Assembly: GCA_026874595.1 (NCBI GenBank)
Contig: CM049314.1
Span: 1,945,318-2,009,317, forward strand
Direction of reading: 5' to 3'
DNA: 64,000 bases
DNA from: Sipunculus nudus
Taxonomy: Eukaryota; Annelida; Sipuncula; Golfingiida; Sipunculidae
The notes beneath the pieces are model-generated. The model ran no database searches. It was not told where the DNA came from and saw only the letters and a program-made list of their open reading frames with translations. A program made the translations under genes and the position numbers. Below are positions 12,901-62,301 of this stretch, in pieces; position 1 is the stretch's first letter; every line of letters begins with the position of its first letter.

Positions 12901-14666
12901 TAGACATTATACATGTATCCGCTCAGGTAAACTAGTGTGTCGGGGTGCTAGTAGAAATCATATATAAACAGGCTCAGGTAAACTAGTGTGTCGGGGGTGC
13001 TTGTAAACATAATACATATACCGGCACAGGTAAACTAGAGTGTCGGGGGTGCTAGTAGACATTAAACATATACCTGTACAGGTAAGCTATGTGTCTGATG
13101 TGCTAGTAGACATTATACATAAACCGGATCAGGTAAACTAGTGTGTCGGGGGTGCTAGTAGACATTATACATATACCGGCTCAGGTGATCTAGTGTGTCA
13201 GGGGTGCTAGTAGACATACATATACCGGCTCAGGTTAAGTAGTGTCTCTCGGGTGCTAGTAGACATTATACATATACCGGCTTAGGTGATCTAGTGTGTC
13301 AGGGGTGCTAGTAGACATACATATACCGGCTCAGGTTAAGTAGTGTCTCTCGGGTGCTAGTAGACATTATACATATACCGGCTCAGGTGATCTAGTGTGT
13401 CAGGGGTGCTAGTAGACATATACATATACCGGCACAGGTAAACTAGTGTGTCGTGCTGTTAGAAGACATTATACTTATACCGGTTCAGGTAAACTAGTAT
13501 GTCACGGTGCTAGTACACATTACACATATACCGGTTCAGGTAAACTAGTGTGTGGGGGTGCCATTAGACATTAAACATATACCGGCTCAGGTAAAGTAGT
13601 GTGTCGGGGGTACTAGTAAACATTTTACAAATGCCGGCTCATGTAAACTAGTGTGTCGGGGTGCCAGTAGACATTAAACATATACCGGCGCAGGTAAACT
13701 AGTGTGTCGGGGTGCTAGTAGACATTATACATATACCGGCTTAGGTAAACTAGTGTGTCGGGGGTGTTAGTAGACATTGTACATAAACCGGCTCAGGTAA
13801 ACTAGTGTGCCGGGGGTGCTAGTAGACATTATACAAATGCTGGCTCAGGTAAACTAGTGTGTCGGGGTGCTAGTAGACATTAAACATATACCGGCTCAGG
13901 TAAACCAGTTTGTCGGGGGTGCTAGTAGACATTATACATATACCGGCTCAGGTAAACTAGTGTGTCTGGGGTGCTAGTAGACATTATACATAAACCGGAT
14001 CAGGTAAACTAGTGTGTCGGGGGTGCTAGTAGACATAATACATATACCTGTACAGGTAAATTAGTGTGTCTGATGTGCTTGTAGACATTAAACATATACC
14101 TGTACAGGTAAACTAGTGTGTCGGGGGTGCTAATAGACATTATACATATACCGGCTCAGGTAAACTAGTGTGTCGTGGCGGTAGTAGACATTATACATAT
14201 ACTGGCTCAGGTAAATTAGTGCGTCTGATGTGCTAGTAGACATTATACATAAACCGGCTCAGGTAAACTAGTGTGTCAGGGGGATAGTAGACATTATACT
14301 TATACCTGTACAGGTAAACTTGTGTGTCGGGGGTGCTAGTAGACATTATACATATACTTGCTCAGGTAAACTAGTGTGTCGTAGCGCTAGTAGACATTAT
14401 ACATATACCGGCTCAGGTAAACTAGTGTATCGAGGGTGCTAGTAGACATTATACATATACTGGCTCAGGTAAACTAGTGTGTCTGGGGTGCTAGTAGAAT
14501 TTAAACATATACCGGCTCAGGTTAACGAGTATGTCACTGGTGCTAGTAGACATATACATATACCGGCTCAGGTAAATTAGTTTGTCTGGGGCGCTAGTAG
14601 ACATTATACATATACCGGCATAGGTGAACTAGTGTGTCGGGGTGTTACTAGACATTATACATATAC
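9905..14666. repeat. 4.8-kb satellite segment, copy A (partner at 35.6-40.5 kb)
   Basis: This ordered string of monomer variants recurs about 25.7-25.8 kb downstream. GCTAGTGGAC at 9911 pairs with 35643 (offset 25,732), TTGCTAATAG at 10631 with 36364 (25,733), and GGCATAGG at 14617 with 40450 (25,833). The roughly 100-bp change in offset is a two-monomer indel. Internally the segment is also a near-tandem duplication: TTGCTAATAG is at 10631 and 12276, an offset of 1,645 bp that grows to 1,746 bp further right. Confidence 0.8.
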
Positions 14667-15789
14667 CAGCACACTTAAACTAGTGTGTCTGGGGGGCTAG
14701 TAGACATTATATATATACCGGCTCAGGTGAACTAGTATGTCAGGGGTGCTAGTAGACATTATACATTTACCGGCTCAGGTTAAGTAGTATCTCTGGGATT
14801 CTAGTAGACATTATACATATACCGGCACAGGTGAACTAGTGTGTCAGGGGTGCTAGTAGACATTATACATATACCAGCACTGGTAAACAAGTGTGTCTGG
14901 GGGCTAGTATACATTATACATATACCGGCACAGCTAAACTAGTGTGTCGGGTTGCTATTAGACATAATACATGTACCCGCTCAGGTAAACTACTGTGTCG
15001 GGGTGCTAGTAGAAATTATACATAAACAGGCTCAGGTAAACCGGTGTGTCGTGGTGCTAGTAGACATTATACATATACCGGCTCAGTTAAATTGGTGTGT
15101 CAGTGGTGCTAGAAGACATTCTACAAATACCGGCTCAGGTAAACTAGTGTGTCGGGGAAGCTAGTTGACAACATGCAAATTCCGGCTCAAATAAACTAGT
15201 GTGCCGTGGTGCTAGTAGACATTAAACAAATCCGGCACAGGCAAACTAATGTGTCGGGGGTGCTGGTAGACATTATACATATACCGGCTGAGGTAAACTA
15301 GACTGTCTATGGGATGATAGTAGACATTATACATAAACAGGCTTAGGTAAACTAGTGTGTCTTGGGTGCAAGTAGACATTATACATATACCTGTACAGGT
15401 AATCTAATGTCTGATGTGCTAGTAGATATTATACATAAACCGGCTCAGGTAAACTAGTGTGTCGGGGGTGCTAATAGACATTATACATACATTGGCTCAG
15501 GTAAACTAGTGTGTCGGGGGTGCTAGTAGACATTAAACATATACCGGCTCAGGTTAACGAGTGTGTCACTGGTGCTAGTAGACATATACATATACCGGCT
15601 CAGGTAAACTAGTGTGTCTGGGGTGCTAGTGGACATTATACATATACCGGCACAGGTTAAGTAGTGTCTCTGGGATGCTAGTAGACATTGTACATATACC
15701 GGCACAGGTGAACTAGTGTGTCAGGGGTGCTAGTAGACATTATACATACACCAACACAGGTAAACTAGTGTGTCTGGGGGCCTAGTAGA

Positions 15790-17405
15790 CATTATACATG
15801 TATCCGCTCAGGTAAACTAGTGTGTCGTGCTGTTAGTAGACATTATACTTATACCGGCTCAGGTAAACTAGTGTGTCGGGGGTGCTTGTAAACATTATAC
15901 ATATACCGGCACAGCTAAACTAGTGTGTCGGGTTGCTATTAGACATAATACATGTACCCGCTCAGGTAAACTAGTGTGTCGGGGTGCTAGTAGAAATTAT
16001 ACACAAACAGGCTCAGGTAAACTAGTGTGTCTTGGGTGCTAGTACACATTATAGATATACTGACACAGGAAAACTAGTGTGTCGGGGATGCAAGTAGACA
16101 TTATACATATACCGGCTCAGGTAAACTAGTGTATCGCGGTGCTAGTAGACATTTTACAAATACCGGCTCAGGTAAACTAGTATGTCGGGGGTGCTAGTAG
16201 ACATTATATAAATGCCGCCTTAGGTAAACTAGTGTGTCGGGGGTGCTAGTAGACATTATATAAATACAGGCTCAGGTAAACTAGTGTGTCGGGGGTGCTT
16301 GTAAACATTATACATATACCGGCACAGGTAAACTAGTGTGTCGGGTTGCTATTAGACATTATACATGTACCCGCTCAGGTAAACTAGTGTGTCGGGGGTA
16401 CTAGTAAACATTTTACAAATGCCGGCTCAGGTAAACTAGTGTGTCGGGGTGCCAGTAGACATTAAACATATACCGGCTCAGGTAAACTAGTGTGTCGGGG
16501 TGCTAGTAGACATTATACATATACCGGCTGAGGTAAACTAGTGTGTCGGGGGTGCTAGTAGACATTGTACATAAACCGGCACAGGTAAACTAGTGTGTCG
16601 GGGGTGCTAGTAGACATTATACAAATGCCGTCTCAGGTGAACTAGTGTGTCGGTGGTGTTAGTAGACATTATACAAATGCCTGTTTAGTTAAACTAGTGT
16701 CTCGAGGGTGCTAGTAGACATTATATAAATACCGGCTCAGGTAAACTAGTGTGTCGGGGGTGCTTGTAAACATTATACTTATACCGGCACAGGTAAACTA
16801 GTGTGTCTGATGTGCTAGTAGACATACTAGTGTATCGGGGTGTTAGAAGACATTATACATATACCGGCTCAGGTTTAGTAGTGTCTCTCGGGTACTAGTA
16901 GACATTATACATATACCGGCTCAGGTGATCTAGTGTGTCAGGGGTGCTAGTAGACATATACATATACCGGCACAGGTAAACTAGTGTGTCGTGCTGTTAG
17001 AAGACATTATACTTATACCGGTTCAGGTTAACTAGCATGTCACGGTGCTAGTAGACATTACACATATACCGGCTCAGGTAAACTAGTGTGTCGGGGGTGC
17101 TAGTAGATATTTTACAAATACCTGATCAGGTAAACAAGTGTGTCGGGGGTGCTAGTAGACATTATACAAATGCCGGCTTAGGTAAACTAGTGTGTCGGGG
17201 GTGCTAGTAGACATTATATAATTACAGGCTCAGGTAAACTAGTGTGTCAGGGGTGCTTGTAAACATTATACATATACCGGCACAGGTAAACTAGTGTGTC
17301 GAGATGCTATTAGACATTATACATGTACCCGCTCAGGTAAACTAGTTTCTCGGGGTGCTAGTAGAAATTATACATAAACAGGCTCAGGTAAACTAGTGTG
17401 TCGGG
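15790..17405. repeat. 1.6-kb satellite segment duplicated at 40.5-42.2 kb
   Basis: The order of variants matches 40,538-42,153 at an offset of 24,748 bp. TGTCGTGCTG is at 15823 and 40571, GTATCGCGG at 16131 and 40879, and the truncated monomer at 16818 and 41566. The match ends where one copy continues with GGGGGTACTAG and the other with GGGGGTGCTTG. The offset differs from that of the neighbouring 4.8-kb block, so the two were either copied separately or later rearranged. Confidence 0.75.
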
Positions 17406-20400
17406 GGTACTAGTAAACATTTTACAAATGCCGGCTCATGTAAACTAGTGTGTCGGGGTGCCAGTAGACATAAAACATATACCGGCGCAGGCAAACTAGT
17501 GTGACGGGGTGCTAGTAGACATTATACATATACCGGCTTAGGTAAACTAGTGTGTCGGGGGTGTTAGTAGACATTGTACATAAACCGGCTCAGGTAAACT
17601 AGTGTGTTGGGGGTGCTAGTAGACATTATACAAATGCTGGCTCTGGTAAACTAGTGTGTCGGGGTGCTAGTAGACATTAAACATATACCGGCTCAGGTAA
17701 ACCAGTTTGTCGGGGGTGCTAGTAGACATTATACATATACCGGCTCAGGTAAACTAGTGTGTCTGGGGTGCTAGTAGACATTATACATAAACCGGATCAG
17801 GTAAACTAGTGTGTCGGGGGTGCTAGTAGACATAATACATATACCTGTACAGGTAAATTAGTGTGTCTGATGTGCTTGTAGACATTAAACATATACCTGT
17901 ACAGGTAAACTAGTGTGTCGGGGGTGCTAATAGACATTATACATATACCGGCTCAGGTAAACTAGTGTGTCGTGGCGGTAGTAGACATTATACATATTCT
18001 GGCTCAGGTAAATTAGTGCGTCTGATGTGCTAGTAGACATTATACATAAACCGGCTCAGGTAAACTAGTGTGCCAGGGGGGATAGTAGACATTATACTTA
18101 TACCTGTACAGGTAAACTTGTGTGTCGGGGGTGCTAGTAGACATAATACATATACTTGCTCAGGTAAACTAGTGTGTCGTAGCGCTAGTAGACATTATAC
18201 ATATACCGGCTCAGGTAAACTAGTGTATCGAGGGTGCTAGTAGACATTATACATATACTGGCTCAGGTAAACTAGTGTGTCTGGGGTGCTAGTAGAATTT
18301 AAACATATACCGGCTCAGGTTAACGAGTATATCACTGGTGCTAGTAGACATATTCATATACCGGCTCAGGTAAATTAGTTTGTCTGGGGTGCTAGTAGAC
18401 ATTATACATATACCGGCATAGGTGAACTAGTGTGTCGGGGTGTTACTAGACATTATACATATACCAGCACACTTAAACTAGTGTGTCTGGGGGGCTAGTA
18501 GACATTATATATGTACCGGCTCAGGTGAACTAGTATGTCAGGGGTGCTAGTAGACATTATACATTTACCGGCTCAGGTTAAGTAGTGTCTCTGGGATTCT
18601 AGTAGACATTATACATATACCGGCACAGGTGATCTAGTGTGTCAGGGGTGCTAGTAGACATTATACATATACCAGCACTGGTAAACAAGTGTGTCTGGGG
18701 GCTAGTATACATTATACATATACCGGCACAGCTAAACTAGTGTGTCGGGTTGCTATTAGACATAATACATGTACCCGCTCAGGTAAACTAGTGTGTCGGG
18801 GTGCTAGTAGAAATTATACATAAACAGGCTCAGGTAAACCGGTGTGTCGTGGTGCTAGTAGACATTATACATATACCGGCTCAGTTAAATTGGTGTGTCA
18901 GTGGTGCTAGAAGACATTTTACAAATACCGGCTCAGGTAAACTAGTGTATCGCGGTGCTAGTAGACATTTTACAAATACCGGCTCAGGTAAACTAGTATG
19001 TCGGGGGTGCTAGTAGACATTATATAAATGCCGCCTTAGGTAAACTAGTGTGTCGGGGGTGCTAGTAGACATTATATAAATACAGGCTCAGGTAAACTAG
19101 TGTGTCGGGGGTGCTTGTAAACATTATACATATACCGGCACAGGTAAACTAGTGTGTCGGGTTGCTATTAGACATTATACATGTACCCGCTCAGGTAAAC
19201 TAGTGTGTCGGGGGTACTAGTAAACATTTTACAAATGCCGGCTCAGGTAAACTAGTGTGTCGGGGTGCCAGTAGACATTAAACATATACCGGCTCAGGTA
19301 AACTAGTGTGTCGGGGTGCTAGTAGACATTATACATATACCGGCTGAGGTAAACTAGTGTGTCGGGGGTGCTAGTAGACATTGTACATAAACCGGCACAG
19401 GTAAACTAGTGTGTCGGGGGTGCTAGTAGACATTATACAAATGCCGTCTCAGGTGAACTAGTGTGTCGGTGGTGTTAGTAGACATTATACAAATGCCTGT
19501 TTAGTTAAACTAGTGTCTCGAGGGTGCTAGTAGACATTATATAAATACCGGCTCAGGTAAACTAGTGTGTCGGGGGTGCTTGTAAACATTATACTTATAC
19601 CGGCACAGGTAAACTAGTGTGTCTGATGTGCTAGTAGACATACTAGTGTATCGGGGTGTTAGAAGACATTATACATATACCGGCTCAGGTTTAGTAGTGT
19701 CTCTCGGGTACTAGTAGACATTATACATATACCGGCTCAGGTGATCTAGTGTGTCAGGGGTGCTAGTAGACATATACATATACCGGCACAGGTAAACTAG
19801 TGTGTCGTGCTGTTAGAAGACATTATACTTATACCGGTTCAGGTTAACTAGCATGTCACGGTGCTAGTAGACATTACACATATACCGGCTCAGGTAAACT
19901 AGTGTGTCGGGGGTGCTAGTAGATATTTTACAAATACCTGATCAGGTAAACAAGTGTGTCGGGGGTGCTAGTAGACATTATACAAATGCCGGCTTAGGTA
20001 AACTAGTGTGTCGGGGGTGCTAGTAGACATTATATAATTACAGGCTCAGGTAAACTAGTGTGTCAGGGGTGCTTGTAAACATTATACATATACCGGCACA
20101 GGTAAACTAGTGTGTCGAGATGCTATTAGACATTATACATGTACCCGCTCAGGTAAACTAGTTTCTCGGGGTGCTAGTAGAAATTATACATAAACAGGCT
20201 CAGGTAAACTAGTGTGTCGGGGGTACTAGTAAACATTTTACAAATGCCGGCTCATGTAAACTAGTGTGTCGGGGTGCCAGTAGACATAAAACATATACCG
20301 GCGCAGGCAAACTAGTGTGACGGGGTGCTAGTAGACATTATACATATACCGGCTTAGGTAAACTAGTGTGTCGGGGGTGTTAGTAGACATTGTACATAAA

Positions 20401-21762
20401 CCGGCTCAGGTAAACTAGTGTGTTGGGGGTGCTAGTAGACATTATACAAATGCTGGCTCTGGTAAACTAGTGTGTCGGGGTGCTAGTAGACATTAAACAT
20501 ATACCGGCTCAGGTAAACCAGTTTGTCGGGGGTGCTAGTAGACATTATACATATACCGGCTCAGGTAAACTAGTGTGTCTGGGGTGCTAGTAGACATTAT
20601 ACATAAACCGGATCAGGTAAACTAGTGTGTCGGGGGTGCTAGTAGACATAATACATATACCTGTACAGGTAAATTAGTGTGTCTGATGTGCTTGTAGACA
20701 TTAAACATATACCTGTACAGGTAAACTAGTGTGTCGGGGGTGCTAATAGACATTATACATATACCGGCTCAGGTAAACTAGTGTGTCGTGGCGGTAGTAG
20801 ACATTATACATATTCTGGCTCAGGTAAATTAGTGCGTCTGATGTGCTAGTAGACATTATACATAAACCGGCTCAGGTAAACTAGTGTGCCAGGGGGGATA
20901 GTAGACATTATACTTATACCTGTACAGGTAAACTTGTGTGTCGGGGGTGCTAGTAGACATAATACATATACTTGCTCAGGTAAACTAGTGTGTCGTAGCG
21001 CTAGTAGACATTATACATATACCGGCTCAGGTAAACTAGTGTATCGAGGGTGCTAGTAGACATTATACATATACTGGCTCAGGTAAACTAGTGTGTCTGG
21101 GGTGCTAGTAGAATTTAAACATATACCGGCTCAGGTTAACGAGTATATCACTGGTGCTAGTAGACATATTCATATACCGGCTCAGGTAAATTAGTTTGTC
21201 TGGGGTGCTAGTAGACATTATACATATACCGGCATAGGTGAACTAGTGTGTCGGGGTGTTACTAGACATTATACATATACCAGCACACTTAAACTAGTGT
21301 GTCTGGGGGGCTAGTAGACATTATATATGTAGCGGCTCAGGTGAACTAGTATGTCAGGGGTGCTAGTAGACATTATACATTTACCGGCTCAGGTTAAGTA
21401 GTGTCTCTGGGATTCTAGTAGACATTATACATATACCGGCACAGGTGATCTAGTGTGTCAGGGGTGCTAGTAGACATTATACATATACCAGCACTGGTAA
21501 ACAAGTGTGTCTGGGGGCTAGTATACATTATACATATACCGGCACAGCTAAACTAGTGTGTCGGGTTGCTATTAGACATAATACATGTACCCGCTCAGGT
21601 AAACTAGTGTGTCGGGGTGCTAGTAGAAATTATACATAAACAGGCTCAGGTAAACCGGTGTGTCGTGGTGCTAGTAGACATTATACATATACCGGCTCAG
21701 TTAAATTGGTGTGTCAGTGGTGCTAGAAGACATTTTACAAATACCGGCTCAGGTAAACTAGT
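16131..21762. repeat. 2,816-bp higher-order tandem duplication (2 copies)
   Basis: Bases 16131-18946 are repeated at 18947-21762. Markers at exactly 2,816 bp include GTATCGCGG (16131/18947), GTCTGATGTG next to a truncated monomer (16805/19621) and GTCTGATGTGCTTG (17865/20681). The unit is about 55 monomers. In my reading the copies are almost identical; one clear difference is TATGTACCGG near 18509 against TATGTAGCGG near 21325. The near identity implies very recent duplication or strong homogenisation. Confidence 0.88.
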
Positions 21763-24700
21763 GTGTCGGGGAAGCTAGTTGACAACATACAAATGCCGGC
21801 TCAAGTAAACTAGTGTGCCGTGGTGCTAGTAGACATTAAACAAATCCGGCACAGGCAAACTAGTGTGTCGGGGGTGCTAGTAGACATTATACATATACCG
21901 GCTGAGGTAAACTAGACTGTCTATGGGATGATAGTAGACATTATACATAAACAGGCTCAGGTAAACTAGTGTGTCTTGGGTGCAAGTAGACATAAAACAT
22001 ATACCGGCGCAGGTAAACTAGTGTGACGGGGTGCTAGTAGACATTATACATATACCGGCTTTGGTAAACTAGTGTGTCGGGGGTGTTAGTAGACATTGTA
22101 CATAAACCGGCTCAGGTAAACTAGTGTGTCGGGGGTGCTAGTAGACATTATACAAATGCTGGCTCTGGTAAACTAGTGTGTCGGGGTGCTAGTAGACATT
22201 AAACATATACCGGCTCAGGTAAACCAGTTTGTCGGGGGTGCTAGTAGACATTATACATATACCGGCTCAGGTAAACTAGTGTGTCTGGGGTGCTAGTAGA
22301 CATTATACATAAACCGGATCAGGTAAACTAGTGTGTCGGGGGTGCTAGTAGACATAATACATATACCTGTACAGGTAAATTAGTGTGTCTGATGTGCTTG
22401 TAGACATTAAACATATACCTGTACAGGTAAACTAGTGTGTCGGGGGTGCTAATAGACATTATACATATACCGGCTCAGGTAAACTAGTGTGTCGTGGCGG
22501 TAGTAGACATTATACATATACTGGCTCAGGTAAATTAGTGCGTCTGATGTGCTAGTAGACATTATACATAAACCGGCTCAGGTAAACTAGTGTGCCAGGG
22601 GGGATAGTAGACATTATACTTATACCTGTACAGGTAAACTTGTGTGTCGGGGGTGCTAGTAGACATAATACATATACTTGCTCAGGTAAACTAGTGTGTC
22701 GTAGCGCTAGTAGACATTATACATATACCGGCTCAGGTAAACTAGTGTATCGAGGGTGCTAGTAGACATTATACATATACTGGCTCAGGTAAACTAGTGT
22801 GTCTGGGGTGCTAGTAGAATTTAAACATATACCGGCTCAGGTTAACGAGTATATCACTGGTGCTAGTAGACATATTCATATACCGGCTCAGGTAAATTAG
22901 TTTGTCTGGGGTGCTAGTAGACATTATACATATACCGGCATAGGTGAACTAGTGTGTCGGGGTGTTACTAGACATTATACATATACCAGCACACTTAAAC
23001 TAGTGTGTCTGGGGGGCTAGTAGACATTATATATGTACCGGCTCAGGTGAACTAGTATGTCAGGGGTGCTAGTAGACATTATACATTTACCGGCTCAGGT
23101 TAAGTAGTGTCTCTGGGATTCTAGTAGACATTATACATATACCGGCACAGGTGATCTAGTGTGTCAGGGGTGCTAGTAGACATTATACATATACCAGCAC
23201 TGGTAAACAAGTGTGTCTGGGGGTTAGTATACATTATACATATACCGGCACAGCTAAACTAGTGTGTCGGGTTGCTATTAGACATAATACATGTACCCGC
23301 TCAGGTAAACTAGTGTGTCGGGGTGCTAGTAGAAATTATACATAAACAGGCTCAGGTAAACCGGTGTGTCGTGGTGCTAGTAGACATTATACATATACCG
23401 GCTCAGTTAAATTGGTGTGTCAGTGGTGCTAGAAGACATTTTACAAATACCGGCTCAGGTAAACTAGTGTGTCGGGGAAGCTAGTTGACAACATACAAAT
23501 GCCGGCTCAAGTAAACTAGTGTGCCGTGGTGCTAGTAGACATTAAACAAATCCGGCACAGGCAAACTAGTGTGTCGGGGGTGCTAGTAGACATTATACAT
23601 ATACCGGCTGAGGTAAACTAGACTGTCTATGGGATGATAGTAGACATTATACATAAACAGGCTCAGGTAAACTAGTGTGTCTTGGGTGCAAGTAGACATT
23701 ATACATATACCTGTACAGGTAATCTAATGTCTGATGTGCTAGTAGACATTATACATAAACCGGCTCAGGTAAACTAGTGTGTCGGGGGTGCATATAGACA
23801 TTATACATATATTGGCTCAGGTAAACTAGTGTGTCGGGGGTGCTAGTAGACATTAAACATATACCGGCTCAGGTAAACGAGTGTGTCACTGGTGCTAGTA
23901 GACATATACATATACCGGCTCAGGTAAACTAGTGTGTCTGGGGTGCTAGTGGACATTATACATATACCGGCACAGGTTAAGTAGTGTCTCTGGGATGCTA
24001 GTAGACATTATACATATATCGGCACAGGTGAACTAGTGTGTCAGGGGTGCTGGTAGACATTATACATGTATCCGCTCAGGTAAACTAGTGTGTCTGATGT
24101 GCTTGTAGACATTAAACATATACCTGTACAGGTAAACTAGTGTGTCGGGGGTGCTAATAGACATTATACATATACCGGCTCAGGTAAACTAGTGTGTCGT
24201 GGCGGTAGTAGACATTATACATATACTGGCTCAGGTAAATTAGTGCGTCTGATGTGCTAGTAGACATTATACATAAACCGGCTCAGGTAAACTAGTGTGC
24301 CAGGGGGGATAGTAGACATTATACTTATACCTGTACAGGTAAACTTGTGTGTCGGGGGTGCTAGTAGACATAATACATATACTTGCTCAGGTAAACTAGT
24401 GTGTCGTAGCGCTAGTAGACATTATACATATACCGGCTCAGGTAAACTAGTGTATCGAGGGTGCTAGTAGACATTATACATATACTGGCTCAGGTAAACT
24501 AGTGTGTCTGGGGTGCTAGTAGAATTTAAACATATACCGGCTCAGGTTAACGAGTATATCACTGGTGCTAGTAGACATATTCATATACCGGCTCAGGTAA
24601 ATTAGTTTGTCTGGGGTGCTAGTAGACATTATACATATACCGGCATAGGTGAACTAGTGTGTCGGGGTGTTACTAGACATTATACATATACCAGCACACT

Positions 24701-27700
24701 TAAACTAGTGTGTCTGGGGGGCTAGTAGACATTATATATGTACCGGCTCAGGTGAACTAGTATGTCAGGGGTGCTAGTAGACATTATACATTTACCGGCT
24801 CAGGTTAAGTAGTGTCTCTGGGATTCTAGTAGACATTATACATATACCGGCACAGGTGATCTAGTGTGTCAGGGGTGCTAGTAGACATTATACATATACC
24901 AGCACTGGTAAACAAGTGTGTCTGGGGGCTAGTATACATTATACATATACCGGCACAGCTAAACTAGTGTGTCGGGTTGCTATTAGACATAATACATGTA
25001 CCCGCTCAGGTAAACTAGTGTGTCGGGGTGCTAGTAGAAATTATACATAAACAGGCTCAGGTAAACCGGTGTGTCGTGGTGCTAGTAGACATTTTACAAA
25101 TACCGGCTCAGGTAAACTAGTGTGTCGGGGAAGCTAGTTGACAACATACAAATGCCGGCTCAAGTAAACTAGTGTGCCGTGGTGCTAGTAGACATTAAAC
25201 AAATCCGGCACAGGCAAACTAGTGTGTCGGGGGTGCTAGTAGACATTATACATATACCGGCTGAGGTAAACTAGACTGTCTATGGGATGATAGTAGACAT
25301 TATACATAAACAGGCTCAGGTAAACTAGTGTGTCTTGGGTGCAAGTAGACATAAAACATATACCGGCGCAGGTAAACTAGTGTGACGGGGTGCTAGTAGA
25401 CATTATACATATACCGGCTTTGGTAAACTAGTGTGTCGGGGGTGTTAGTAGACATTGTACATAAACCGGCTCAGGTAAACTAGTGTGTCGGGGGTGCTAG
25501 TAGACATTATACAAATGCTGGCTCTGGTAAACTAGTGTGTCGGGGTGCTAGTAGACATTAAACATATACCGGCTCAGGTAAACCAGTTTGTCGGGGGTGC
25601 TAGTAGACATTATACATATACCGGCTCAGGTAAACTAGTGTGTCTGGGGTGCTAGTAGACATTATACATAAACCGGATCAGGTAAACTAGTGTGTCGGGG
25701 GTGCTAGTAGACATAATACATATACCTGTACAGGTAAATTAGTGTGTCTGATGTGCTTGTAGACATTAAACATATACCTGTACAGGTAAACTAGTGTGTC
25801 GGGGGTGCTAATAGACATTATACATATACCGGCTCAGGTAAACTAGTGTGTCGTGGCGGTAGTAGACATTATACATATACTGGCTCAGGTAAATTAGTGC
25901 GTCTGATGTGCTAGTAGACATTATACATAAACCGGCTCAGGTAAACTAGTGTGCCAGGGGGGATAGTAGACATTATACTTATACCTGTACAGGTAAACTT
26001 GTGTGTCGGGGGTGCTAGTAGACATAATACATATACTTGCTCAGGTAAACTAGTGTGTCGTAGCGCTAGTAGACATTATACATATACCGGCTCAGGTAAA
26101 CTAGTGTATCGAGGGTGCTAGTAGACATTATACATATACTGGCTCAGGTAAACTAGTGTGTCTGGGGTGCTAGTAGAATTTAAACATATACCGGCTCAGG
26201 TTAACGAGTATATCACTGGTGCTAGTAGACATATTCATATACCGGCTCAGGTAAATTAGTTTGTCTGGGGTGCTAGTAGACATTATACATATACCGGCAT
26301 AGGTGAACTAGTGTGTCGGGGTGTTACTAGACATTATACATATACCAGCACACTTAAACTAGTGTGTCTGGGGGGCTAGTAGACATTATATATGTACCGG
26401 CTCAGGTGAACTAGTATGTCAGGGGTGCTAGTAGACATTATACATTTACCGGCTCAGGTTAAGTAGTGTCTCTGGGATTCTAGTAGACATTATACATATA
26501 CCGGCACAGGTGATCTAGTGTGTCAGGGGTGCTAGTAGACATTATACATATACCAGCACTGGTAAACAAGTGTGTCTGGGGGTTAGTATACATTATACAT
26601 ATACCGGCACAGCTAAACTAGTGTGTCGGGTTGCTATTAGACATAATACATGTACCCGCTCAGGTAAACTAGTGTGTCGGGGTGCTAGTAGAAATTATAC
26701 ATAAACAGGCTCAGGTAAACCGGTGTGTCGTGGTGCTAGTAGACATTATACATATACCGGCTCAGTTAAATTGGTGTGTCAGTGGTGCTAGAAGACATTT
26801 TACAAATACCGGCTCAGGTAAACTAGTGTGTCGGGGAAGCTAGTTGACAACATACAAATGCCGGCTCAAGTAAACTAGTGTGCCGTGGTGCTAGTAGACA
26901 TTAAACAAATCCGGCACAGGCAAACTAGTGTGTCGGGGGTGCTAGTAGACATTATACATATACCGGCTGAGGTAAACTAGACTGTCTATGGGATGATAGT
27001 AGACATTATACATAAACAGGCTCAGGTAAACTAGTGTGTCTTGGGTGCAAGTAGACATTATACATATACCTGTACAGGTAATCTAATGTCTGATGTGCTA
27101 GTAGACATTATACATAAACCGGCTCAGGTAAACTAGTGTGTCGGGGGTGCATATAGACATTATACATATATTGGCTCAGGTAAACTAGTGTGTCGGGGGT
27201 GCTAGTAGACATTAAACATATACCGGCTCAGGTAAACGAGTGTGTCACTGGTGCTAGTAGACATATACATATACCGGCTCAGGTAAACTAGTGTGTCTGG
27301 GGTGCTAGTGGACATTATACATATACCGGCACAGGTTAAGTAGTGTCTCTGGGATGCTAGTAGACATTATACATATATCGGCACAGGTGAACTAGTGTGT
27401 CAGGGGTGCTAGTAGACATTATACATGTATCCGCTCAGGTAAACTAGTGTGTCTGATGTGCTTGTAGACATTAAACATATACCTGTACAGGTAAACTAGT
27501 GTGTCGGGGGTGCTAATAGACATTATACATATACCGGCTCAGGTAAACTAGTGTGTCGTGGCGGTAGTAGACATTATACATATACTGGCTCAGGTAAATT
27601 AGTGCGTCTGATGTGCTAGTAGACATTATACATAAACCGGCTCAGGTAAACTAGTGTGCCAGGGGGGATAGTAGACATTATACTTATACCTGTACAGGTA

Positions 27701-30655
27701 AACTTGTGTGTCGGGGGTGCTAGTAGACATAATACATATACTTGCTCAGGTAAACTAGTGTGTCGTAGCGCTAGTAGACATTATACATATACCGGCTCAG
27801 GTAAACTAGTGTATCGAGGGTGCTAGTAGACATTATACATATACTGGCTCAGGTAAACTAGTGTGTCTGGGGTGCTAGTAGAATTTAAACATATACCGGC
27901 TCAGGTTAACGAGTATATCACTGGTGCTAGTAGACATATTCATATACCGGCTCAGGTAAATTAGTTTGTCTGGGGTGCTAGTAGACATTATACATATACC
28001 GGCATAGGTGAACTAGTGTGTCGGGGTGTTACTAGACATTATACATATACCAGCACACTTAAACTAGTGTGTCTGGGGGGCTAGTAGACATTATATATGT
28101 ACCGGCTCAGGTGAACTAGTATGTCAGGGGTGCTAGTAGACATTATACATTTACCGGCTCAGGTTAAGTAGTGTCTCTGGGATTCTAGTAGACATTATAC
28201 ATATACCGGCACAGGTGATCTAGTGTGTCAGGGGTGCTAGTAGACATTATACATATACCAGCACTGGTAAACAAGTGTGTCTGGGGGCTAGTATACATTA
28301 TACATATACCGGCACAGCTAAACTAGTGTGTCGGGTTGCTATTAGACATAATACATGTACCCGCTCAGGTAAACTAGTGTGTCGGGGTGCTAGTAGAAAT
28401 TATACATAAACAGGCTCAGGTAAACCGGTGTGTCGTGGTGCTAGTAGACATTTTACAAATACCGGCTCAGGTAAACTAGTGTGTCGGGGAAGCTAGTTGA
28501 CAACATACAAATGCCGGCTCAAGTAAACTAGTGTGCCGTGGTGCTAGTAGACATTAAACAAATCCGGCACAGGCAAACTAGTGTGTCGGGGGTGCTAGTA
28601 GACATTATACATATACCGGCTGAGGTAAACTAGACTGTCTATGGGATGATAGTAGACATTATACATAAACAGGCTCAGGTAAACTAGTGTGTCTTGGGTG
28701 CAAGTAGACATAAAACATATACCGGCGCAGGTAAACTAGTGTGACGGGGTGCTAGTAGACATTATACATATACCGGCTTTGGTAAACTAGTGTGTCGGGG
28801 GTGTTAGTAGACATTGTACATAAACCGGCTCAGGTAAACTAGTGTGTCGGGGGTGCTAGTAGACATTATACAAATGCTGGCTCTGGTAAACTAGTGTGTC
28901 GGGGTGCTAGTAGACATTAAACATATACCGGCTCAGGTAAACCAGTTTGTCGGGGGTGCTAGTAGACATTATACATATACCGGCTCAGGTAAACTAGTGT
29001 GTCTGGGGTGCTAGTAGACATTATACATAAACCGGATCAGGTAAACTAGTGTGTCGGGGGTGCTAGTAGACATAATACATATACCTGTACAGGTAAATTA
29101 GTGTGTCTGATGTGCTTGTAGACATTAAACATATACCTGTACAGGTAAACTAGTGTGTCGGGGGTGCTAATAGACATTATACATATACCGGCTCAGGTAA
29201 ACTAGTGTGTCGTGGCGGTAGTAGACATTATACATATACTGGCTCAGGTAAATTAGTGCGTCTGATGTGCTAGTAGACATTATACATAAACCGGCTCAGG
29301 TAAACTAGTGTGCCAGGGGGGATAGTAGACATTATACTTATACCTGTACAGGTAAACTTGTGTGTCGGGGGTGCTAGTAGACATAATACATATACTTGCT
29401 CAGGTAAACTAGTGTGTCGTAGCGCTAGTAGACATTATACATATACCGGCTCAGGTAAACTAGTGTATCGAGGGTGCTAGTAGACATTATACATATACTG
29501 GCTCAGGTAAACTAGTGTGTCTGGGGTGCTAGTAGAATTTAAACATATACCGGCTCAGGTTAACGAGTATATCACTGGTGCTAGTAGACATATTCATATA
29601 CCGGCTCAGGTAAATTAGTTTGTCTGGGGTGCTAGTAGACATTATACATATACCGGCATAGGTGAACTAGTGTGTCGGGGTGTTACTAGACATTATACAT
29701 ATACCAGCACACTTAAACTAGTGTGTCTGGGGGGCTAGTAGACATTATATATGTACCGGCTCAGGTGAACTAGTATGTCAGGGGTGCTAGTAGACATTAT
29801 ACATTTACCGGCTCAGGTTAAGTAGTGTCTCTGGGATTCTAGTAGACATTATACATATACCGGCACAGGTGATCTAGTGTGTCAGGGGTGCTAGTAGACA
29901 TTATACATATACCAGCACTGGTAAACAAGTGTGTCTGGGGGTTAGTATACATTATACATATACCGGCACAGCTAAACTAGTGTGTCGGGTTGCTATTAGA
30001 CATAATACATGTACCCGCTCAGGTAAACTAGTGTGTCGGGGTGCTAGTAGAAATTATACATAAACAGGCTCAGGTAAACCGGTGTGTCGTGGTGCTAGTA
30101 GACATTATACATATACCGGCTCAGTTAAATTGGTGTGTCAGTGGTGCTAGAAGACATTTTACAAATACCGGCTCAGGTAAACTAGTGTGTCGGGGAAGCT
30201 AGTTGACAACATACAAATGCCGGCTCAAGTAAACTAGTGTGCCGTGGTGCTAGTAGACATTAAACAAATCCGGCACAGGCAAACTAGTGTGTCGGGGGTG
30301 CTAGTAGACATTATACATATACCGGCTGAGGTAAACTAGACTGTCTATGGGATGATAGTAGACATTATACATAAACAGGCTCAGGTAAACTAGTGTGTCT
30401 TGGGTGCAAGTAGACATTATACATATACCTGTACAGGTTATCTAATGTCTGATGTGCTAGTAGACATTATACATAAACCGGCTCAGGTAAACTAGTGTGT
30501 CGGGGGTGCTAATAGACATTATACATATATTGGCTCAGGTAAACTAGTGTGTCGGGGGTGCTAGTAGACATTAAACATATACCGGCTCAGGTAAACGAGT
30601 GTGTCACTGGTGCTAGTAGACATATACATATACCGGCTCAGGTAAACTAGTGTGT
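20681..30655. repeat. 3,359-bp higher-order repeat built of 1,705 + 1,654 bp halves
   Basis: The marker GTCTGATGTGCTTG occurs at 22387, 24092, 25746, 27451 and 29105. The spacings are 1705, 1654, 1705 and 1654 bp, summing to 3,359 bp. An independent marker, CATAAAACAT in a CGCAGG-type monomer, is at 21991, 25350 and 28709, spaced exactly 3,359 bp twice. The halves differ in part by one monomer: the longer has the AAATTGGTGTGTCAG monomer before GACATTTTACAAA, and the shorter lacks it. Order and phase are lost near 30,655, where GTGCTAGTGGAC is expected but GTGCTTGTAAAC is found. This is a nested, alpha-satellite-like organisation built from a short monomer. Confidence 0.9.
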
Positions 30656-30824
30656 CTGGGGTGCTTGTAAACATTATACATATACCGGCACAGGTAAACT
30701 AGTGTGTCGAGTTGCTATTAGACATTATACATGTACCCGCTCAGGTAAACTAGTGTCTCGGGGTGCTAGTAGAAATTATACATAAACAGGCTCAGGTAAA
30801 CTAGTGTGTCGGGGGTGCTTGTAA

Positions 30825-33800
30825 ACATAATACATATACTTGCTCAGGTAAACTAGTGTGTCGTAGCGCTAGTAGACATTATACATATACCGGCTCAGGT
30901 AAACTAGTGTATCGAGGGTGCTAGTAGACATTATACATATACTGGCTCAGGTAAACTAGTGTGTCTGGGGTGCTAGTAGAATTTAAACATATACCGGCTC
31001 AGGTTAACGAGTATATCACTGGTGCTAGTAGACATATTCATATACCGGCTCAGGTAAATTAGTTTGTCTGGGGTGCTAGTAGACATTATACATATACCGG
31101 CATAGGTGAACTAGTGTGTCGGGGTATTACTAGACATTATACATATACCAGCACACTTAAACTAGTGTGTCTGGGGGGCTAGTAGACATTATATATGTAC
31201 CGGCTCAGGTGAACTAGTATGTCAGGGGTGCTAGTAGACATTATACATTTACCGGCTCAGGTTAAGTAGTGTCTCTGGGATTCTAGTAGACATTATACAT
31301 ATACCGGCACAGGTGATCTAGTGTGTCAGGGGTGCTAGTAGACATTATACATATACCAGCACTGGTAAACAAGTGTGTCTGGGGGTTAGTATACATTATA
31401 CATATACCGGCACAGCTAAACTAGTGTGTCGGGTTGCTATTAGACATAATACATGTACCCGCTCAGGTAAACTAGTGTGTCGGGGTGCTAGTAGAAATTA
31501 TACATAAACAGGCTCAGGTAAACCGGTGTGTCGTGGTGCTAGTAGACATTATACATATACCGGCTCAGTTAAATTGGTGTGTCAGTGGTGCTAGAAGACA
31601 TTTTACAAATACCGGCTCAGGTAAACTAGTGTGTCGGGGAAGCTAGTTGACAACATACAAATGCCGGCTCAAGTAAACTAGTGTGCCGTGGTGCTAGTAG
31701 ACATTAAACAAATCCGGCACAGGCAAACTAGTGTGTCGGGGGTGCTAGTAGACATTATACATATACCGGCTGAGGTAAACTAGACTGTCTATGGGATGAT
31801 AGTAGACATTATACATAAACAGGCTCAGGTAAACTAGTGTGTCTTGGGTGCAAGTAGACATTATACATATACCTGTACAGGTTATCTAATGTCTGATGTG
31901 CTAGTAGACATTATACATAAACCGGCTCAGGTAAACTAGTGTGTCGGGGGTGCTAATAGACATTATACATATATTGGCTCAGGTAAACTAGTGTGTCGGG
32001 GGTGCTAGTAGACATTAAACATATACCGGCTCAGGTAAACGAGTGTGTCACTGGTGCTAGTAGACATATACATATACCGGCTCAGGTAAACTAGTGTGTC
32101 TGGGGTGCTAGTGGACATTATACATATACCGGCACAGGTTAAGTAGTGTCTCTGGGATGCTAGTAGACATTATACATATATCGGCACAGGTGAACTAGTG
32201 TGTCAGGGGTGCTAGTAGACATTATACATGTATCCGCTCAGGTAAACTAGTGTGTCGTGCTGTTAGTAGACATTATACTTATACCGGCTCAGGAAAACTA
32301 GTGAGTCGGGGGTGCTTGTAAACATTATACATATACCGGCACAGCTAAACTAGTGTGTCGGGTTGCTATTAGACATAATACATGTACCCGCTCAGGTAAA
32401 CTAGTGTGTCGGGGTGCTAGTAGAAATTATACACAAACAGGCTCAGGTAAACTAGTGTGTCTTGGGTGCTAGTACACATTATAGATATACTGACACAGGA
32501 AAACTAGTGTGTCGGGGATGCAAGTAGACATTATACATATACCGGCTCAGGTAAACTAGTGTATCGCGGTGCTAGTAGACATTTTACAAATACCGGCTCA
32601 GGTAAACTAGTATGTCGGGGGTGCTAGTAGACATTATATAAATGCCCCCTTAGGTAAACTAGTGTGTCGGGGGTGCTTGTAAACATTATACATATACCGG
32701 CACAGGTAAACTAGTGTGTCGGGTTGCTATTAGACATTATACATGTACCCGCTCAGGTAAACTAGTGTGTCGGGGGTACTAGTAAACATTTTACAAATGC
32801 CGGCTCAGGTAAACTAGTGTGTCGGGGTGCCAGTAGACATTAAACATATACCGGCTCAGGTAAACTAGTGTGTCGGGGTGCTAGTAGACATTATACATAT
32901 ACCGGCTGAGGTAAACTAGTGTGTCGGGGGTGCTAGTAGACATTGTACATAAACCGGCACAGGTAAACTAGTGTGTCGGGGGTGCTAGTAGACATTATAC
33001 AAATGCCGGCTCAGGTGAACTAGTGTGTCGGTGGTGCTAGTAGACATTATACAAATGCCGGTTTAGTTAAACTAGTGTCTCGAGGGTGCTAGTAGACATT
33101 ATATAAATACCGGCTCAGGTAAACTAGTGTGTCGGGGGTGCTTGTAAACATTATACTTATACCGGCATAGGTAAACTAGTGAGTCTGATGTGCTAGTAGA
33201 CATACTAGTGTATCGGGGTGTTAGAAGACATTATACATATACCGGCTCAGGTTAAGTAGTGTCTCTCGGGTACTAGTAGACATTATACATATACCGGCTC
33301 AGGTGATCTAGTGTGTCAGGGGTGCTAGTAGACATATACATATACCGGCACAGGTAAATTAGTGTGTCGTGCTGTTAGAAGACATTATACTTATACCGGT
33401 TCAGGTTAACTAGCATGTCACGGTGCTAGTAGACATTACACATATACCGGCTCAGGTAAACTAGTGTGTCGGGGGTGCTAGTAGATATTTTACAAATACC
33501 TGATCAGGTAAACAAGTGTGTCGGGGGTGCTAGTAGACATTATACAAATGCCGGCTTAGGTAAACTAGTGTGTCGGGGGTGCTAGTAGACATTATATAAT
33601 TACAGGCTCAGGTAAACTAGTGTGTCAGGGGTGCTTGTAAACATTATACATATACCGGCACAGGTAAACTAGTGTGTCGAGTTGCTATTAGACATTATAC
33701 ATGTACCCGCTCAGGTAAACTAGTGTCTCGGGGTGCTAGTAGAAATTATACATAAACAGGCTCAGGTAAACTAGTGTGTCGGGGGTGCTTGTAAACATTA

Positions 33801-35525
33801 TACATATACCGGCACAGGTAAACTAGTGTGTCGGGGGTGCTAGTAGGCTTTAAAAAAATACCTGTACAGGTAAGATTTGTGTCTGATGTGCTAGTAGACA
33901 ATATACATAAAAACCGGATCAGGTAAACTAGAGTGTCGGGGGTGCTAGTAGACATTATACATATACCTGTACAAGTAAACTAGTGTGTCTGATGTGCTAG
34001 TAGACATACATATACCGGCTCAGGTAAGCTAGTGTGTCGGGGGTGTTAGTAGACATTATATATATACTGGCTCAGGTAAACTAGTGTGTCGTGGCGCTAG
34101 TAGACATTATACATATACCGGCTCAGGTAAACTAGTGTATTGGGGGTGCTAGTAGACATTATACATATACTGGCTCAGGTAAACTAGTGTGTCTGGGGTG
34201 CTAGTAGACATTATACATATACCGGCTCAGGTTAACTAGTGTGTCAGGGGTGCTAGTAGACATATACATATACCGGCAGAGGTAAACTAGTGTATCGTGC
34301 TGTTAGTAGACATTATACTTATACCGGTTCAGGTAAACTAGTATATCGTGGTGCTAGTAGACATTATACATATACCGGCTCAGGTAAACTAGTGTGTCGG
34401 GGGTGCTAGTAGATATTTTACAAATACCTGCTCAGGTAAACTAGTGTGTCGGGGGTGCTAGTCGACATCATACAAATGCCGGTTCAGGTAAACTAGTGGG
34501 TGGGGGTGCCATTAGACATTAAACATATACCGGCTCAGGTAAACTAGTGTGTCGGGGCTGCTAGTAGACATTATACATATACCGGCTGAGGTAAACTAGT
34601 GTGTCTGGGGTGATAGTAGACATTATACATAAACCGGCTCAGGTAAATTAGTGTGTCGGGGGTCTAGTAGACATAATACATATACCTGTACAGGTAAACT
34701 AGTGTGTCTGATGTGCTAGTAGACATTATACATAAACCAACTCAGGTAAACTAGTGTGTCGGGGGTGCTAGTAAACATTTTACAAATGCCGGCTCATTTA
34801 AACTAGTGTGTCCGGGTGCCAGTAGACATTAAACATATACCGGCTCAGGTAAACTAGTGTGTCGGGGGTGCTAGTAGACATTATACATATACCGGCTCAG
34901 GTGATCTAGTGTGTCAGGGGTGCTAGTAGACATATACATATACCGGCACAGGTAAACTAGTGTGTCGTGCTGTTAGAAGACATTATACTTATACCGGTTC
35001 AGGTTAACTAGCATGTCACGGTGCTAGTAGACATTACACATATACCGGCTCAGGTAAACTAGTGTGTCGGGGGTGCTAGTAGATATTTTACAAATACCTG
35101 ATCAGGTAAACAAGTGTGTCGGGGGTGCTAGTAGACATTATACAAATGCCGGCTTAGGTAAACTAGTGTGTCGGGGGTGCTAGGAGACATTATATAATTA
35201 CAGGCTCAGGTAAACTAGTGTGTCAGGGGTGCTTGTAAACATTATACATATACCGGCACAGGTAAACTAGTGTGTCGAGTTGCTATTAGACATTATACAT
35301 GTACCCGCTCAGGTAAACTAGTGTCTCGGGGTGCTAGTAGAAATTATACATAAACAGGCTCAGGTAAACTAGTGTGTCGGGGGTGCTTGTAAACATTATA
35401 CATATACCGGCACGGGTAAACTAGTGTGTCGGGGGTGCTAGTAGGCTTTAAACATATACCTGTACAGGTAAGATTTGTGTCTGATGTGCTAGTAGACAAT
35501 ATACATAAACCGGATCAGGTAAACT
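30825..35525. repeat. 4.7-kb satellite segment, copy A (partner at 48.1-52.9 kb)
   Basis: The variant order is repeated about 17.27 kb downstream. GAATTTAAAC at 30979 pairs with 48251, the truncated monomer at 33196 with 50467, and the AAAACCGGATC monomer near 33906 lies 17,271 bp before its partner. Near 34.2 kb against 51.5 kb the offset steps from 17,271 to 17,374 bp. The downstream copy carries two extra monomers there, of the GTGAACCAGTGTATCGGGG type. Confidence 0.85.
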
Positions 35526-35635
35526 AGTGTGTCGGGGGTGCTAGTAGACATTAAACAAATACCGGCTCAGGTTAACGAGTGTGTCACTGGTGCTAGTAGA
35601 AATATACATATACCGGCTCAGGTAAACTAGTGTGT

Positions 35636-38600
35636 CTGGGGTGCTAGTGGACATTATACATATACCGGCACAGGTTAAGTAGTGTCTCTGGGATGCTAGT
35701 AGACATTATACATATACCGGCACAGGTGAACTAGTGTTTCAGGGGTGCTAGTAGACATTATACATACACCAGCACAGGTAAACTAGTGTGTCTGGGGGCC
35801 TAGTAGACATTATACATGTATCCGCTCAGGTAAACTAGTGTGTCGTGCTGTTAGTAGACATTATACTTATACCGGCTCAGGTAAACTAGTGTGTCGGGGG
35901 TGCTTGTAAACATTATACATATACCGGCACAGCTAAACTAGTGTGTCGGGTTGCTATTAGACATAATACATGTACCCGCTCAGGTAAACTAGTGTGTCGG
36001 GGTGCTAGTAGAAATTATACATAAACAGGCTCAGGTAAACTAGTGTGTCTTGGGTGCTAGTACACATTATAGATATACCGACACAGGAAAACTAGTGTGT
36101 CGGGGATGCAAGTAGACATTATACATATACCGGCTCAGGTAAACTAGTGTATCGCGGTGATAGTAGACATTTTACAAATACCGGCTCAGGTAAACTAGTG
36201 TGTCGGGGGTGCTAGTAGACATTATATAAATGCCGCCTTAGGTAAACTAGTGTGTCGGGGGTGCTAGTAGACATTATATAAATACAGGCTCAGGTAAACT
36301 AGTGTGTCGGGGGTGCTTGTAAACATTATACATATACCGACAAAGGTAAACTAGTGTGTCGGGTTGCTAATAGACATTATACATGTACCCGCTCAGGTAA
36401 ACTAGTGTGTCGAGGGTACTAGTAAACATTTTACAAATGCCGGCTCAGGTAAACTAGTGTGTCGGGGTGCCAGTAGACATTAAACATATACCGGCTCAGG
36501 TAAACAAGTGTGTCGGGGTGCTAGTAGACATTATACATATACCGGCTGAGGTAAACTAGTGTGTCGGGGGTGCTAGTAGATATTGTACATAAACCGGCAC
36601 AGGTAAACTAGTGTGTCGGGGGTGCTAGTAGACATTATACAAATGCCGGCTCAGGTGAACTAGTGTGTCGGTGGTGCTAGTAGACATTATACAAATGCCG
36701 GTTTAGTTAAACTAGTGTGTCGAGGGTGCTAGTAGACATTATATAAATACCGGCTCAGGTAAACTAGTGTGTCGGGGTTTCCTGTAAACATTATACTTAT
36801 ACCGGCACAGGTAAACTAGTGTGTCGGGTTGCTATTAGACATTATACATGTACCCGCTCAGGTAAACTAGTGTGTCAGGGTGCTAGTAGAAGTTATACAT
36901 AAACAGGCTCAGGTAATCTAGTGTGCCGGGGTGCTTGTAAACATTATACTTATATCGGCACAGGTAAACTAGTGTGTCCGGTTGCTATTAGACATTATAC
37001 ATGTATCCGCTCAGGTAACTAGTGTGTCGGGGTGCTAGTAGAAATTATACATAAACAGGCTCAGGTAAACTAGTGTGTCGGGGGTGCTTGTAAACATAAT
37101 ACATATACCGGCACAGGTAAACTAGAGTGTCGGGGGTGCTAGTAGACATTAAACATATACCTGTACAGGTAAGCTATGTGTCTGATGTGCTAGTAGACAT
37201 TATACATAAACCGGATCAGGTAAACTAGTGTGTCGGGGGTGCTAGTAGACATTATACATATACCGGCTCAGGTGATCTAGTGTGTCAGGGGTGCTAGTAG
37301 ACATACATATACCGGCTCAGGTTAAGTAGTGTCTCTCGGGTGCTAGTAGACATTATACATATACCGGCTTAGGTGATCTAGTGTGTCAGGGGGGCTAGTA
37401 GACATACATATACCGGCTCAGGTTAAGTAGTGTCTCTCGGGTGCTAGTAGACATTATACATATACCGGCTCAGGTGATCTAGTGTGTCAGGGGTGCTAGT
37501 AGACATATACATATACCGGCACAGGTAAACTAGTGTGTCGTGCTGTTAGAAGACATTATACTTATACAGGTTCAGGTTAACTAGTATGTCACGGTGCTAG
37601 TACACATTACACATATACCGGTTCAGGTAAACTAGTGTGTGGGGGTGCCATTAGACATTAAACATATACCGGCTCAGGTAAAGTAGTGTGTCGGGGGTAC
37701 TAGTAATCATTTTACAAATGCCGGCTCATGTAAACTAGTGTGTCGGGGTGCCAGTAGACATTAAACATATACCGGCGCAGGTAAACTAGTGTGTCGGGGT
37801 GCTAGTAGACATTATACATATACCGGCTTAGGTAAACTAGTGTGTCGGGGGTGTTAGTAGACATTGTACATAAAATGGCTCAGGTAAACAAGTGTGTCGG
37901 GGTGCTAGTAGACATTATACAAATGCCGGCTTAGGTAAACTAGTGTGTCGGGGGTGCTAGTAGACATTATATAAATGCCGCCTTAGGTAAACTAGTGTGT
38001 CGGGGGTGCTAGTTGACATTATATAAATACAGGCTCAGGTAAACTAGTGTGTCGGGGGTGCTTGTAAACATTATACATATACCGGCAAAGGTAAACTAGT
38101 GTGTCGGGTTGCTAATAGACATTATACATGTACCCGCTCAGGTAAACTAGTGTGTCGAGGGTACTAGTAAACATTTTACAAATGCCGGCTCAGGTAAACT
38201 AGTGTGTCGGGGTGCCAGTAGACATTAAACATATACCGGCTCAGGTAAACTAGTGTGTCGGGGTGCTAGTAGACATTATACATATACCGGCTGAGGTAAA
38301 CTAGTGTGTCGGGGGTGCTAGTAGATATTGTACATAAACCGGCACAGGTAAACTAGTGTGTCGGGGGTGCTAGTAGACATTATACAAATGCCGGCTCAGG
38401 TGAACTAGTGTGTCGGTGGTGCTAGTAGACATTATACAAATGCCGGTTTAGTTAAACTAGTGTGTCGAGGGTGCTAGTAGACATTATATAAATACCGGCT
38501 CAGGTAAACTAGTGTGTCGGGGGTGCCTGTAAACATTATACTTATACCGGCACAGGTAAACTAGTGTGTCGGGTTGCTATTAGACATTATACATGTACCC

Positions 38601-40500: not shown

Positions 40501-41189
40501 AGCACAGGTGAACTAGTGTGTCAGGGGTGCTAGTAGACATTATACATGTATCCGCTCAGGTAAACTAGTGTGTCGTGCTGTTAGTAGACATTATACTTAT
40601 ACCGGCTCAGGTAAACTAGTGTGTCGGGGGTGCTTGTAAACATTATACATATACCGGCACAGCTAAACTAGTGTGTCGGGTTGCTATTAGACATAATACA
40701 TGTACCCGCTCAGGTAAACTAGTGTGTCGGGGTGCTAGTAGAAATTATACACAAACAGGCTCAGGTAAACTAGTGTGTCTTGGGTGCTAGTACACATTAT
40801 AGATATACTGACACAGGAAAACTAGTGTGTCGGGGATGCAAGTAGACATTATACATATACCGGCTCAGGTAAACTAGTGTATCGCGGTGCTAGTAGACAT
40901 TTTACAAATACCGGCTCAGGTAAATTAGTATGTCGGGGGTGCTAGTAGACATTATATAAATGCCGCCTTAGGTAAACTAGTGTGTCGGGGGTGCTAGTAG
41001 ACATTATATAAATACAGGCTCAGGTAAACTAGTGTGTCGGGGGTGCTTGTAAACATTATACATATACCGGCACAGGTAAACTAGTGTGTCGGGTTGCTAT
41101 TAGACATTATACATGTACCCGCTCAGGTAAACTAGTGTGTCGGGGGTACTAGTAAACATTTTACAAATGCCGGCTCAGGTAAACTAGTG

Positions 41190-62255: not shown

Positions 62256-62301
<46 letters not shown>

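Follow-up and report, generated by a model that had tools for sequence, protein, structure and literature searches.

Anatomy and proposed origin of a nested 65-monomer higher-order repeat in a large minisatellite array of Sipunculus nudus

The minisatellite array and its surroundings

The window analysed here is a 64,000-bp stretch of the Sipunculus nudus assembly GCA_026874595.1 (C9:1945318-2009317, C9 being contig CM049314.1), and it contains part of a long minisatellite (Table 1). After flanking DNA had been added to give a 129-kb region with both flanks, wraparound alignment to a 52-bp unit placed the array at C9:1899380-2002273, where 102,894 bp hold 1,999 monomers. The array is a minisatellite in the sense of head-to-tail units of 10-100 bp, since 1,867 of its 1,999 units measure 51 or 52 bp. 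The original prediction had described a 51-bp minisatellite, which is true of 722 monomers; 1,145 others are of 52 bp, and the unit is therefore mixed. The monomers comprise 540 distinct sequences with an average identity to the consensus of 0.90, and monomer-to-monomer identity is 0.83 for random and adjacent pairs alike. Greedy grouping at no more than one mismatch yielded 329 monomer types. Almost all internal monomers (1,982 of 1,997) measure 48-55 bp, indicating that register is maintained, as judged from borders drawn by a consensus-fitted alignment that is biased towards register.

Pattern searches of the 1.43-Gb genome (153 contigs) placed the array at a single locus: all 504 matches to a 49-letter pattern (at most three mismatches) and all 1,203 matches to a 31-letter pattern lay inside it, and both searches gave identical counts in the 129-kb region alone. 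Every one of these matches was in forward orientation, with no reverse-strand monomer among them, and a 251-bp query found only C9 among the 145 matches listed; relatives of greater divergence may lie elsewhere. GC skew stayed between +0.19 and +0.24 for each 2-kb step through 56 kb of the window. Within the portion of the array covered by the window, open reading frames with ATG, GTG or TTG starts included two of 70 aa and none longer, and a coding role was rejected on this ground. A search for Rfam families across the window gave none at gathering scores. One 103-bp sequence was folded, that at 22431-22533, of which an identical copy lies at 29149-29251; it did no better than its shuffles, 177 of 200 on one strand and 196 of 200 on the other folding as well.

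To the left, a plus-strand open frame with no Pfam match stops at C9:1899122, leaving 257 bp between it and the array. To the right lies a minus-strand gene with a partial match to PF00059 (E 5.8e-6) and a match to PF00024 (E 7.1e-5). If both flanking frames are genes, the array sits between two convergent ones. Other repeats occur nearby. A 49-bp minisatellite of 20 copies lies 8.5 kb downstream (C9:2010740-2011721; L002:1423-2404); TRF scored its six-unit 293-bp period at 1717 against 1698 for 49 bp, and its plain identity favoured lag 49 (0.86) over lag 293 (0.79). A 28-bp minisatellite of 41.6 copies occupies C9:1889838-1890992 (L003:4521-5675), and the 378-aa stop-to-stop minus-strand frame running through it is probably owing to the repeat. 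Past the lectin exons, a reverse-transcriptase fragment of a retrotransposon was found at L002:4397-4669 (PF00078, E 1.6e-9).

A dispersed repeat starts 5-27 bases past the array end, which may mark an old boundary. Fifteen of the 16 other genome matches to window 56950-57250 fell in 56961-57090, at 72-90% identity. The sole other match of the left flank was a 34-bp GGTGGT tract. An origin of the array inside a transposable element is unsupported, given that left-hand tract and the lack of any related tandem array at the five loci of the dispersed repeat that were searched (about 3.1 kb each).

The array lies 1.9 Mb from base 1 of C9. No telomeric repeat was present in the first 900 bases of the contig, and TRF reported one 12-bp repeat only in its first 3,000. 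Elsewhere in the assembly, 11 matches to the COX1 family were recorded, with strong ones on C60, C61, C62, C66, C72, C74, C75, C89 and C123. The C61 frame is open over 467 residues and aa3-like, and that on C123 is cbb3-like. Both appear to be bacterial, and the assembly may include bacterial associates.

Table 1. Features of the window (positions in the window)
Feature	Position	Strand	Basis or remark
Minisatellite, part within the window; continues upstream	7..56956	+	TRF, wraparound decomposition
Tandem duplication of 55 monomers (2,816 bp), overlapping neighbour of the tripled block	16109..21764	+	1 mismatch in 2,840 bp
First copy of the 33-monomer tandem duplication X-Y-248 (1,706 bp); second copy from 22017	20311..22016	+	
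Block copy 1, 66 monomers, 3,411 bp: Y-248-X-Y-T, first Y undeleted	20673..24083	+	
Junction monomer, type 248 = 60 (left) / 242 (right); also at 25324 and 28683	21965..22016	+	
Tail T, 8 monomers; also at 27030-27442	23671..24083	+	
Block copy 2, 65 monomers, 3,359 bp: Y'-248-X-Y-T	24084..27442	+	4 substitutions and 52 gap columns vs copy 1
First monomer of Y', joined to type 250; same at 27443	24084..24135	+	Neighbouring types
Fused monomer, type 251 = 120 (left) / 191 (right); also at 28424	25065..25115	+	
Block copy 3, 62 monomers, 3,203 bp, closing with T''	27443..30645	+	3 substitutions vs copy 2 in the shared part
Variant tail T'' (types 252, 229, 62, 10, 64), end of third copy	30389..30645	+	
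Unduplicated X-Y-T, with 242 before and 69 after; presumed starting arrangement	47451..49517	+	
Right-hand gene, two exons seen (C-type lectin, PAN), more possible	61659..63299	-	PF00059, PF00024

Anatomy of the tripled block

The 31-mer CTGATGTGCTTGTAGACATTAAACATATACC matches the window 13 times, and six of these matches, at 20683, 22389, 24094, 25748, 27453 and 29107, are separated by 1706, 1705, 1654, 1705 and 1654 bp. Monomer type 248 recurs twice at exactly 3359 bp. The original prediction had reported spacings of 1705, 1654, 1705 and 1654 bp, together with a second marker at 3,359 bp twice, in the interval 20681-30655; both sets of spacings are present, the former preceded by the extra 1706, and the interval agrees with the block limits determined here. 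Comparison of the window with itself by k-mer diagonals likewise recovered the 3359-bp lag, with 4 mismatches across the 5,579 bp of 21728-27306. The alternation had been called strict, which is correct over two cycles; the opening spacing is 1706, and block 1 comprises 66 monomers in 3,411 bp. Spacings of the same or neighbouring markers beside the interval differ (2816 bp before it, 1444 or 10,796 bp after it), and the hierarchy is therefore local. When the order of monomers was permuted in five trials, the longest repeated block reached 4-5 monomers against 107 for the observed 65-mer repeat, which excludes a chance order.

Three blocks, arranged head to tail and numbering 66, 65 and 62 monomers, make up window 20673-30645. 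A few segments suffice to describe them: X, of types 243 219 244 31 221 47 12; Y, of 25 monomers from type 49 through type 59; and the tail T, of types 60 229 249 10 64 65 66 250. The region then reads X Y 248 X Y T / Y' 248 X Y T / Y' 248 X Y T''. Substitutions number 4 between blocks 1 and 2, 3 between blocks 2 and 3, and 6 between blocks 1 and 3. The blocks are thus 3-6 substitutions apart over 3.2-3.4 kb, compared with 83% identity between random monomers, and form a higher-order repeat (HOR) in the general sense. Type 249 is common to the tails of blocks 1 and 2 and absent from the third tail, and the five types of T'' also come after Y near 31.9 kb.

The 65-mer is the 25-monomer segment Y taken twice, in two different contexts. 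Its 1,705-bp half is Y plus T (33 monomers), and its 1,654-bp half is Y' plus 248 plus X (32 monomers). The halves have in common 19 monomers, then types 120-191 in one and the single fused type 251 in the other, then four more monomers, and the 23 shared pairs have identities of 0.98-1.0. The difference of 51 bp between 1654 and 1705 arises because types 120 and 191 are fused into 251. The last eight monomers of the halves are different: at the same rank they are 0.79-0.90 identical (mean 0.87, against 0.83 for random pairs), which excludes a simple dimer of a 33-mer. The proposal that the halves differ by loss of one monomer therefore accounts for the fusion and leaves out the last eight monomers. 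Monomer, sub-block and block are all present, in keeping with the two-level hierarchy of the original prediction, but the 65-mer is no dimer of two 33-mers.

Traces of copying and proposed origin

The tripled block has company within the array. With thresholds of at least 8 monomers per period and at least 1.9 copies, 12 tandem HORs were detected, with periods of 8 to 93 monomers (4.8 kb for the longest). The 65-mer is the only one above 2.0 copies, at 2.65 by lag and about 2.95 by blocks. Repeated blocks of at least 5 monomers take in 95% of the monomers, and those of at least 20 monomers 83%. Copies are also found at long range: window positions 11505-14673 and 37338-40506 are 3.2-kb direct copies, 25.8 kb apart and 99.5% identical, and further long-range copies occur within the array.

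The junctions inside the tripled block bear the marks of copying. Type 248, read as a 60/242 hybrid, has 1 mismatch; compared with type 60 alone it has 5, and with type 242 alone 4. No pair among 3,000 drawn at random fitted as well, and 0.15% of about 2,000 did so in another test. Such a hybrid is the trace expected if the monomer preceding X had exchanged with the beginning of T, and this accounts for the 1,706-bp duplication. Type 251, read as a 120/191 hybrid, has 0 mismatches, against 3 and 4 to its parents, a fit that again none of 3,000 random pairs matched. Type 250 occurs at five places, followed by Y' at two and by type 69 at three (two of them after T); because it elsewhere always precedes 69, the joint between T and Y' is new. 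Reading the first Y' monomer as a 69/49 hybrid proved uninformative, since one base decides the case and 84% of randomly chosen left partners fit equally well. Between 22379 and 29097 the two half types alternate at columns 1 and 850 of Y (numbering starts at 0), indicating that the whole block was copied. Column 850 is C in Y', in the first Y and in the copy at 47.8 kb, and T in the second Y, which makes the first Y the source of Y', in line with the second step of the scheme set out below.

An automatic hybrid test on the 12 tandem junctions was clear at 2 (periods 33 and 18), weak at 4 and negative at 6; it performs poorly where the run equals the period length, which applies to several of the negatives. 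Identity tracts at the junctions had a median of 22 bp in the 9 of 17 rows retained. The rows omitted were the multi-copy 65-mer, periods 58, 34 and 8 (where the alignment was lost), the values of -10 and 153, and two further occurrences of a 36-bp value, all owed to a single 4-monomer repeat; the median stayed at 22 when -10 and 153 were added. Random in-register breakpoints gave tracts with a mean of 10.3 and a median of 8, 16% of them reaching 19, and arbitrary breakpoints a mean of 0.9.

We propose that the region very probably arose by local tandem segmental amplification within a large non-coding minisatellite, through homology-dependent in-register unequal exchange; this degree of confidence covers homology-dependent in-register copying whichever enzymes act. 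The exchange could have been an unequal crossover between sister chromatids or between alleles, or recombinational repair of an equivalent kind. The starting order would have been 242-X-Y-T-69, still found once at about 47.4-49.6 kb. An exchange of type 60, the first of T, with 242 would have doubled X-Y, producing the 33-monomer duplication and the hybrid 248. An exchange linking T's end with the beginning of the first Y would then have doubled the 66-monomer block Y-248-X-Y-T. An exchange of the adjacent types 120 and 191 would have removed one monomer from the new Y, leaving the hybrid 251 and shortening 1705 to 1654. A final 65-monomer exchange would have duplicated the shortened block, resulting in three blocks and the 1705/1654 alternation. 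Four exchanges account for the region: the copies themselves, both hybrids (248 and 251), the change of neighbour at the second step and the unduplicated order are all seen, and from them we infer the order of the steps and exchange as the mechanism.

Three other explanations were weighed. The tripling could be an assembly artefact, a loop through near-identical repeats, with one or two blocks on the true chromosome. Tandem copies are indeed nearly identical: those of the 55-mer show 1 mismatch in 2,840 bp, and those of the 28-mer none in 1,468 bp. Yet the blocks carry fixed differences, namely the fusion 251, T or C at column 1 of Y, G or A at 24052, A or T at 27080, a dinucleotide at 27151-27152, and T versus T''; moreover, the junction monomers are the very hybrids foreseen from the unduplicated order, the 129-kb region contains no N, and the array flanks are mostly unique (one query had 1 full and 5 short partial matches, the other 1 full and a 34-bp match). 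We therefore regard an artefact as unlikely. A functional, selected HOR array, for example a chromosome-specific centromere, is more doubtful still and seems to us most improbable: a 103-kb array at a single genomic place by two pattern searches would suit it, but HOR homogenisation never goes past about three copies, the folded 103-bp sequence is no better structured than shuffles on either strand, and the window part of the array has no open frame (ATG, GTG or TTG start) above 70 aa.

Replication-based amplification instead of crossover, whether by slippage, by homologous template switching or through break-induced replication, overlaps our own explanation. At most measured junctions the identity tracts are 19-36 bp long, which suits replication and crossover alike, direct copies alone are seen, and homologous template switching in replication would leave marks identical to those of exchange. 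Copied lengths of up to 93 monomers (4.8 kb) are, however, long for simple slippage, and we consider this alternative the less probable one, with a chance that is appreciable. Homology-dependent in-register exchange remains the preferred reading, and we propose no role for the repeat, which would be a recombination by-product of a long tandem array.

In a simulation with hand-set parameters, arrays underwent duplications and deletions in register as well as mutation. A nested HOR was defined as a period of at least 20 monomers in at least 2.5 copies with an internal repeat of at least 10 monomers. Such HORs appeared in 3 of 120 runs when identical monomers were preferred 5-fold, in 19 of 120 at 20-fold and in 71 of 120 at 100-fold; without homology preference they appeared in 0 of 120 runs, and in about 1 of 84 in an earlier version. 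The simulated arrays average 20-62 tandem HORs against 12 observed. Because its parameters are hand-set and it makes too many HORs, the simulation speaks for possibility and for the effect of homology preference and provides no fit. In this simple model nesting is strongly favoured by homology preference, without need of selection.

More tentatively, the array may recombine very actively, with a strong preference of its exchanges for long identity tracts, and the 65-mer may be a nascent HOR that has reached three copies. If so, the monomer string would be a readable record of single exchanges, and the 65-mer would illustrate the beginnings of HOR arrays. Since one array preserves the unduplicated order, the junction hybrids and the successive duplications, it is a compact example of HOR onset, and of a nested HOR outside primate centromeres. 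The observation is real and its anatomy is here corrected; otherwise the region reflects ordinary genome turnover with an unusually legible history.

Relation to known systems

A survey by title of the literature on minisatellites and HORs found nothing on this array, which is weak evidence of absence, and text searches of papers for monomer substrings and for simulation terms gave no match. In Smith's 1976 model, tandem repeats are said to arise by unequal crossover, with higher-order periods forming without selection. The scheme proposed here shares in-register duplications and deletions with it; the comparison is with a model and no sequence family.

The original prediction held a HOR to be less expected in a minisatellite. 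This finds no support: an excerpt from PMC11406999 calls HOR formation and local homogenisation typical of non-coding minisatellites, part of PMC7859515 calls HORs a common trend of satellite evolution, and the array itself holds 11 further tandem HORs. The degenerate telomeric repeats of Arabidopsis, whose HORs the same excerpt of PMC11406999 ascribes to slippage and unequal crossing over, resemble the array in their short monomers, local homogenisation and multi-monomer blocks copied a few times. They differ in having monomers of about 7 bp, as described there, whereas the array has 51/52-bp monomers, a length of 103 kb and blocks of up to 93 monomers.

Alpha satellite is the other natural comparison. 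Its monomer is about 171 bp, against 51/52 bp here, so the array is no alpha satellite, and the many-copy homogenisation of alpha-satellite-type HOR arrays is replaced here by about three copies, with other periods elsewhere in the array. According to PMC11276891, the longest primate HOR is a 59-mer; set against 65 or 93 monomers this is a weak comparison, because those of the array are two- or three-copy duplications. There is a likeness to cascading HORs, defined in an extract of PMC11050224 by monomer types recurring inside one canonical copy. The 65-mer has this property, with 39 types among its 65 monomers. As in the cascading alpha-satellite HORs of the parts of PMC11050224 and PMC11276891 consulted, types recur and sub-periods (33/32 inside 65) are present; those HORs have hundreds of copies, compared with three here, in an array at one locus. 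The 65-mer HOR is a new example of an already known phenomenon.
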